NCBI GenBank assembly: GCA_024583055.1
Contig: CP102145.1
Location: 1,302,001-1,366,000 of the forward strand
Reading direction: 5' to 3'
Length of the DNA: 64,000 nt
DNA from: Streptococcus suis
Lineage (GTDB): Bacteria > Bacillota > Bacilli > Lactobacillales > Streptococcaceae
Shown: positions 11,235-12,954 of the stretch, in pieces
Layout of the letters: the number at the start of each line of letters is the position of its first letter
Position numbering within the stretch: the stretch's first letter is position 1
The notes under the pieces: generated by a model
What the model was told of the DNA's origin: nothing
Database searches by the model: none
Seen by the model: the letters and a program-made list of their open reading frames with translations, nothing else
Made by a program: the position numbers and the translations under genes

Positions 11235-11291
11235 AATATGTCTATTTACAAAATCTTGTTCTCCCCTGTTTCCCGGTGGAGCTGATAAAAA

Positions 11292-12032: not shown

Positions 12033-12070
12033 AGACCTGTCTCCTTGTAAAACCATTGTACCATAATTTT

Positions 12071-12100
12071 AGGCATAAGAAAAACCGACCAAGCGGCCGG
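12071..12100 (-). terminator. Terminator of the DUF4352 gene, first copy of a 30-bp direct repeat
   Basis: On the minus strand CCGGCC-GCTT-GGTCGG is followed by TTTTTC. The 30 bases are identical to 12915-12944, which is the terminator of pgi; the two copies bracket the DUF4352 gene. Confidence 0.75.
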
Positions 12101-12136
12101 CAATGAGAAAGAGACTAGAGTTATGCCTCTTGATTG

Positions 12137-12781
12137 TTATTGTAGGTTAATCAAACCAGTCTCTGTACCCCAAAATCCAGTTTGTACTTTGAGTTGGATA
12201 CTTGGATCATTTGCTGTCTCTTCTGTAATATCAAAGATGACATTGCCAGTAATGGTACTCTCTGGATTTACCTCAGAGAGGAAGAAATTTGCATCTTGAT
12301 TAGCAAATAGACCCGCTGACGAATCTGTCTCGTACTCCACTTCACCTTTTAACAAAGTAAAGAAGTCATCTGTTACTGTAATGGCTTTAGTCCCATTATT
12401 TTTTACGGTAACATTGAGCAACAAGAAAACTCCATTTGCATTTTTACCAAATTCACCACCAACATTAGTGACAATTTCTTTTGAATTTACAATATAGGTT
12501 ACATCACCAACTGGTACTTCTTGCCCAATGCCATAGGTCACCTCTGCTGGCTTCTCCTCTGCTTTTTCTGAGCTACTTGCTGGAGTCTCCGTATTTGCCT
12601 GGCTTGTTTCCTGTGTTGAAGGTTGGCTTGAGGTTGTTGTTCCCTCTTTACCGCCGCCAAGTGCATTGCCTAAAGCTCCAAGTACAATTAAACCTGCCAA
12701 CACGATAAACCAAATCCGTTTGTAAAATGGTTTCTTCTGTACATAGACATTGCCATGCTCATCCCTAATTTTCTTTGCCAT
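12137..12781 (-). CDS. DUF4352 membrane-anchored extracellular protein
   Basis: A 214-residue protein with a short basic cytoplasmic N-terminus, one membrane helix at about 25-45 (IWFIVLAGLIVLGALG), a Ser/Thr/Glu-rich linker (about 50-80) and an immunoglobulin-like DUF4352 domain from about residue 85 to the end. That domain is found on secreted and surface proteins of Gram-positive bacteria and phages; no biochemical role is established. The start has a strong AGGAGG site. The promoter has consensus -35 and -10 boxes separated by a TA repeat, so expression may switch on and off. Identical 30-bp repeats flank the gene. Confidence 0.8.
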   Translation of the reverse strand: MAKKIRDEHGNVYVQKKPFYKRIWFIVLAGLIVLGALGNALGGGKEGTTTSSQPSTQETSQANTETPASSSEKAEEKPAEVTYGIGQEVPVGDVTYIVNSKEIVTNVGGEFGKNANGVFLLLNVTVKNNGTKAITVTDDFFTLLKGEVEYETDSSAGLFANQDANFFLSEVNPESTITGNVIFDITEETANDPSIQLKVQTGFWGTETGLINLQ

Positions 12782-12810
12782 AATAGCCTCCTAAAGAATG
12801 TTATATGTCC

Positions 12811-12839
12811 ATTATATATATATATATATCGGTTGTCAA
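12811..12839 (-). promoter_or_regulatory. Consensus promoter with TA-repeat spacer before the DUF4352 gene
   Basis: On the minus strand TTGACA (12834-12839) and TATAAT (12811-12816) are exactly 17 bp apart. An uninterrupted alternating TA tract (12813-12829, 17 bases) forms 13 bases of the spacer and runs into the -10. A gain or loss of one TA unit would change the spacing to 19 or 15 bp. Confidence 0.85.
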
Positions 12840-12914
12840 TAGATAAATGCAAGAAAATTTAGAGAAAAATTACTTTTTTAGACAATAGACACCTAGACAC
12901 ACAGACAGGATTTG

Positions 12915-12944
12915 AGGCATAAGAAAAACCGACCAAGCGGCCGG
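12915..12944 (-). terminator. Terminator of pgi, second copy of the 30-bp direct repeat
   Basis: On the minus strand AACCGGCC-GCTT-GGTCGGTT is followed by T5 after including the next bases. Identical over 30 bp to 12071-12100. Confidence 0.8.
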
Positions 12945-12954
12945 TTCATATTCA

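Follow-up and report, generated by a model that had tools for sequence, protein, structure and literature searches.

Introduction

In Neisseria meningitidis, promoters of the porA/opc type carry a poly-G or poly-C spacer. A sigma-70 promoter is on when its spacer measures 17 bp, and its activity is strongly reduced at 15 or 19 bp. The hifA/hifB fimbrial promoter of Haemophilus influenzae contains (TA)9-11, and the accessible part of the report proposes that the repeat number changes the spacing between the -35 and -10 boxes (PMC2651432). The same part records that some hifA loci carry mononucleotide tracts upstream where others have TA (PMC2651432). The nearest described streptococcal case that we found, within the excerpt available, is the poly-T tract of Streptococcus pyogenes Spy1336/R28-Spy1337, in which nine T residues give little or no transcript and ten give abundant transcript (PMC7098570). 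In Streptococcus suis, GAGCA repeats switch the reading frame of the type III methyltransferase modS, and repeat-driven switching appears to be much more prevalent in Gram-negative bacteria, both according to an excerpt of one article (PMC6265453). The spacer-switch mechanism is already known from hif and from Neisseria; for TA- or G-spacer promoters in streptococci, no report was found in the open-licence literature (titles and the starts of abstracts, among the matches listed), which does not prove that none exists.

The promoter described here lies in a 64,000-nucleotide stretch of S. suis DNA, hereafter the window, and precedes a DUF4352 gene. As far as the available parts of these sources go, it resembles hif in its TA repeat unit and in the predicted surface structure that it would control, and the mononucleotide alternative at hifA corresponds to the streptococcal poly-G tracts described below. 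Unlike hif, which is one divergent promoter pair in a Gram-negative organism, the streptococcal TA promoters are single promoters of many unrelated genes, and their spacings are odd (15/17/19). The porA/opc-type promoters have the same design as the streptococcal poly-G class but belong to a different phylum and to different genes, and streptococci have both TA and G tracts within single protein families. The R28 tract is likewise a streptococcal intergenic repeat tract controlling a surface protein (PMC7098570), but it is a homopolymeric T tract at a single locus in a divergent intergenic region, and the excerpt of that study does not describe a TA/G spacer design. The modS gene shares repeat-driven phase variation in a streptococcus with the putative TA switch but, in the excerpt available, is switched through its reading frame and not through promoter spacing.

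A TA tract fills most of the spacer of a consensus promoter

The promoter occupies positions 12811..12839 of the minus strand and agrees with the consensus at 12 of 12 box positions. Its -35 box TTGACA (12839-12834) and its -10 box TATAAT (12816-12811) are exact matches and enclose a 17-bp spacer (12833-12817), which consists of ACCG followed by 13 alternating AT bases. The TATA of the -10 box extends this alternation to an uninterrupted run of 17 bp (12813..12829), the proposed switch, whose length varies in relatives. The 29 bp between the -10 box and the ATG (12782..12810, minus strand) contain an AGGAGG ribosome-binding site. The first-pass annotation had described perfect boxes 17 bp apart, with 13 of the 17 spacer bases in a TA tract that runs into the -10 box, and both descriptions are correct. 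A tandem repeat between the -35 and -10 boxes is also a feature of hif/porA-type promoters.

The architecture is rare in its surroundings. TTGACA-N17-TATAAT occurs only here in the window, and 100 shuffles gave a mean of 0.01 exact matches. Between positions 11250 and 14450, seven promoter-like sites were found, a number in line with chance (5.8 expected), and this one alone scores 12/12. The 2.19 Mb genome holds just three tracts with TATATATATATATA, and the locus is its sole site with TTGACA-N(1-25)-ATATATAAT. A pattern search rejected the other two long TA tracts of the genome as TTGACA-spacer promoters. One of them (L038 1501-1516; G000:C1:192734-192749) separates GGAG from the ATG of a 176-aa ORF, whose product we take to be TetR-like, so that its length would alter the spacing of the ribosome site. 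The other, of 20 bp (L040 1501-1520; G000:C1:710948-710967), lies just past the 3' end of an ORF of 309 aa that contains a THMHNDHAGG motif, presumably of the metallo-beta-lactamase type.

We consider the promoter at 12811-12839 very probably phase-variable, that is, a contingency locus. Slipped-strand mispairing during replication would add or remove whole TA units. At the 17-bp spacer present in this genome, the main sigma factor is expected to contact both boxes, giving a predicted ON state; at 15 bp or less, or at 19 bp or more, expression would be weakened or silenced. Showing or hiding a predicted single-pass membrane protein in this manner would diversify a population in a surface feature that antibodies, phages or ligands recognise.

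The product is a predicted single-pass membrane protein

The DUF4352 gene (12137..12781, minus strand) encodes 214 residues. Its ORF matches PF11611 (DUF4352) with an E-value of 6.5e-20 and 72.1 bits, above the gathering score of 25.9. The predicted layout comprises an N-terminal segment, a helix (22-40), a Ser/Thr-rich linker (41-78) and a DUF4352 beta ectodomain. In the AlphaFold model (mean pLDDT 72.7, pTM 0.57), residues 22-40 form a helix, the linker 41-78 is disordered and the beta domain is mostly confident from about residue 83. The model agrees with the earlier description of a membrane helix, a Ser/Thr linker and an extracellular domain, in which exposure outside the cell is a prediction; a flexible linker would carry the beta domain outside the membrane. 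The nearest solved folds include YxkC (in an integrative model), YjhA, YcdA and MPT63, as well as Listeria and Clostridium proteins of unknown function.

The protein has 347 homologs, and those named by organism among the best 120 of the 347 all belong to Streptococcus, with S. suis, S. parasuis and S. ruminantium among them. NCBIfam profiles give the window protein no name, and no relatives of it were found in viral contigs. A defence role for the DUF4352 gene itself is unsupported, since its protein has no PADLOC match.

Repeat number varies between species while the boxes are kept

To separate the boxes from the spacing between them, the 30 best loci of the protein search were read upstream of the gene with no requirement for boxes. 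An alternating TA tract of at least 8 bp precedes the gene in 16 of them, namely the window and 15 others. In each of the 16, the tract is flanked by a -35 box on its left edge and by TATAAT on its right; in the 15 others, the -35 box is TTGACA in 14 and TTGACG in one (L027). The spacers of these 15 measure 15, 19, 9, 5, 13, 7, 15, 13, 17, 19, 19, 5, 9, 11 and 11 bp, and 17 bp occurs just once. Conserved boxes combined with unconserved spacing are what a spacing switch would be expected to leave.

The other 14 of the 30 homologs lack a TA tract, so not every member of the family has the putative switch; this count includes L014, in which a TA promoter precedes another ORF. Homologs that bear the anchor without a TA tract exist, for instance L006-L011. 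Where tract-less homologs have an ordinary TTGAC-type promoter, the spacer is exactly 17 bp (L016, L019 with the -35 box TTGACT, and L008 with a spacer read by eye).

Closely related loci were also compared across their flanks in ten groups, which were a selection from the families seen in the TA census rather than every family. Downstream identity was measured over up to 600 bp, and every comparison is between species representatives, with one genome per species. All 16 matched pairs that are 92% or more identical downstream differ in repeat number; these pairs share members and do not represent 16 independent events, and one compared pair (L076/L057) lacks an ORF. The spacers differ by whole TA units, with pairs of 17/19 bp at 99% identity; 19/15, 19/13 and 15/13 at 98-99%; 11/15 and 14/18 at 97%; 11/21, 19/9 and 19/11 at 96%; 17/25, 11/21 and 15/21 at 94%; 21/13 at 93%; and 11/13, 15/13 and 17/15 at 92%. 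Three pairs at 87-89% identity have equal spacers (11/11, 11/11 and 21/21). Assembly errors of one unit in either direction may contribute, but such errors alone would not produce a range of 5-25 bp. The repeat number, which the first-pass annotation had predicted to vary, is not constant between species, given the 5-19 bp spacers of the homologs and the differences in all close pairs.

The same variation could be the drift of a neutral microsatellite, in which the spacer of an ordinary promoter is TA-rich by chance and its changing length does not usefully affect expression. TA tracts are slippery by nature and nearly half of the homologs lack one, as such drift would allow, but the boxes persist while the spacing departs from the usual range. 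We regard this explanation as improbable, also in view of the genus-wide evidence below, and favour a promoter that is switched by its spacer length.

TA-spacer promoters recur across the genus

Of 284 Streptococcus genomes, 52 contain the pattern TTGACA-(TA)n-TATAAT, at 67 sites in total, and the reversed-pattern control gave 2. Sixty-six of the 67 places were read, two copies in one genome (G266) being identical around the promoter. Long TA tracts ending in TATAAT occur at 122 places, compared with approximately 78 for the reversed pattern (counted by eye), and taken alone are only moderately enriched. A TTGACA box lies within 26 bp upstream of 57 of the 106 distinct long tracts that run into TATAAT, against an expectation of approximately 1.8 derived from the TTGACA density in this window. 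The remaining 49 of the 106 have no TTGACA nearby, in keeping with neutral tract drift. In an order-wide sample, the design is present in 8 of 59 Streptococcus genomes and in 5 of 286 others, and in two of these five, the spacer exceeds 30 bp and is only partly taken up by the tract.

Spacing separates these promoters from ordinary ones. A spacer of 16-18 bp is found in 8 of 66 TA-spacer sites versus 91 of 129 non-TA TTGACA...TATAAT sites (Fisher p 2.6e-15), where the control comes from three genomes (G059, G181 and G250) of the eight searched, with TA sites removed, and a repeated element in G059 adds several spacings of 26-27 bp to it. The clustering of non-TA promoters at 17 bp argues against length drift around an ordinary promoter. 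The TA-spacer lengths step by two, 62 of 66 being odd.

That 58 of the 66 TA-site spacers fall outside 16-18 bp would also suit a degenerating gene family, much of which would consist of silent relics whose spacers have decayed. At L005 (spacer 5), the reading frame is disrupted at the N-terminus, and L090 is truncated relative to L095; these aberrant genes indicate that some copies decay. Most sites stand at predicted OFF spacings, and some copies may accordingly be decaying. Relics would be expected to lose their boxes too, but 15 of 15 other tract-bearing homologs keep both, and 59 of the 66 TA sites have a downstream ORF. General decay is thus a very slim chance, and spacer switching explains the retained boxes better. 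As a separate observation, L090 (spacer 17) and L095 (spacer 19) are 99% alike downstream and encode proteins of 178 and 329 aa, respectively.

Membrane proteins and a poly-G class of promoter

By the criteria used, 7 of the 66 TA sites have no downstream ORF. A strong hydrophobic segment lies within the first 70 residues in 44 of the 59 downstream ORFs versus 12 of 47 window frames; this background comprises all ATG-started frames of at least 150 aa and may contain spurious ones, and several of the 59 ORFs are related to one another. Fifteen of the 59 lack such a segment, and 14 of the 59 have a lipobox-like motif. In a Pfam scan of 20 other switch proteins, 6 reach the curated cut-off and 14 do not; the domains above the cut-off include DUF4352, PASTA, TM2, DUF4230, DUF4839, DUF697 and an LPXTG anchor. 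This recurrence before membrane and surface genes speaks against a neutral tract. The phase variation through spacer length that the first-pass annotation had proposed gains strong support from the between-species comparison, from the kept boxes and from the genus-wide recurrence, mostly before membrane and surface genes.

A second class of promoter was first noticed as a G14-spacer promoter in the spacing-control search. TTGACA and TATAAT separated by a spacer with a run of nine or more G residues occur at 22 sites in 20 of 284 Streptococcus genomes, with 0 in the reversed-pattern control. The 20 of the 22 places for which loci were available were read (L151-L170), and they have 9-14 G and spacers of 15-24 bp. 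Poly-G promoters precede, among others, L157 (YSIRK-type signal) and L160 (SEC10/PgrA surface domain). Several proteins behind these poly-G spacers are of the secreted or surface type, alongside others, and we regard promoters of this kind as another slippery class, next to the TA class. In three families, TA-spacer and poly-G-spacer genes encode homologous proteins with 54-74% identity: L169 with L046/L070, L170 with L067/L071, and L167/L168 with L089, where L167-L170 are the poly-G members. Judged from these sequences, the insert is conserved in its position and slipperiness but not in its sequence.

The poly-G tracts at the equivalent position in three homologous families bear on two of the alternatives. 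They speak against a neutral TA microsatellite. They also bear on the possibility that the tract is an AT-rich target of a regulator, or an element whose melting is sensitive to supercoiling or temperature, with its length only tuning the response. Alternating TA melts easily, and long tracts add TATATA sites resembling a -10 box, which would permit graded expression. With G substituting for TA in homologous families, AT-richness is not the shared feature, whereas position and slipperiness are, and we consider a binding or structural element highly improbable. Under spacer switching, an alternative TATATA at 17 bp may give low-level expression from long tracts, so long alleles may leak, and short ones may be tight.

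L046 and L070 behind TA spacers and L169 behind a poly-G spacer match PADLOC PDC-S30 (E ~1e-90). PDC denotes a PADLOC defence candidate, which is unvalidated, and PDC-S30 is recorded in S. suis in the accessible part of the source (PMC12813430). The presence of this family behind both repeat types suggests phase-variable phage defence, which is thereby directly testable.

Another arrangement was seen in several DUF4352-type loci that have no TTGACA-TA promoter (L006, L007, L009, L010 and L018), in which a run of 8-12 T ends 6-12 bp before TATAAT. The T run is possibly another slippery promoter.

Different ectodomains behind a shared anchor

In the window, the DUF4352 gene lies between pgi and a phosphatase gene. 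Terminator-like hairpins are located after the upstream gene pgi (12926..12947, minus strand), before the promoter, and after the DUF4352 gene (12084..12101, minus strand), which makes transcription of the gene on its own probable.

Residues 1-45 of the window protein have 71-82% identity over the aligned part to L088, L090, L091, L092 and L095 and 63% identity to L107. The ectodomains behind this shared anchor are of four kinds without clear pairwise similarity, and L095 has two kinds in tandem. The same kinds also occur behind TA promoters on lipoprotein anchors (L051 and L061) and on multi-helix anchors (L104 and, more weakly at 28%, L086). In 6 of 8 close relatives with the anchor, the gene adjoins the phosphatase gene and follows it in reading direction; pgi is seen as well in G249, G180, G247 and G253, and the phosphatase gene only in G252 and G244. 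In G250, neither pgi nor the phosphatase gene is near the anchor gene, and in G261 a contig end interrupts the neighbourhood. From this mosaic, we infer a possible cassette exchange.

We lean, with moderate confidence, towards a genus-wide system of promoter-spacer switches with interchangeable TA and G inserts before surface proteins, lipoproteins and the candidate phage-defence gene PDC-S30. In one branch, a unit of switch, leader and anchor would be combined with various ectodomains, located at the pgi-phosphatase site in the six of eight close relatives, such that a lineage would change the displayed domain by recombination and a cell would change its display by slippage. If this is true, streptococci carry dozens of spacer switches that are recognisable from a pattern of approximately 30 bp, their ON and OFF states could be read in existing sequencing data, and surface antigens among the switch genes could be flagged as not stably expressed.

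The stretch that contains the promoter and the gene (12066..12944) is bounded by two 35-nt direct repeats, at 12066-12100 and 12910-12944, which are 97% alike. The downstream copy overlaps the hairpin after the DUF4352 gene, and the upstream copy overlaps the hairpin after pgi. A dispersed element was rejected as the origin of the repeat, since its 29-nt core has only these two copies and no further ones were found in the genome at up to 3 mismatches. The pair may record the insertion of a cassette.
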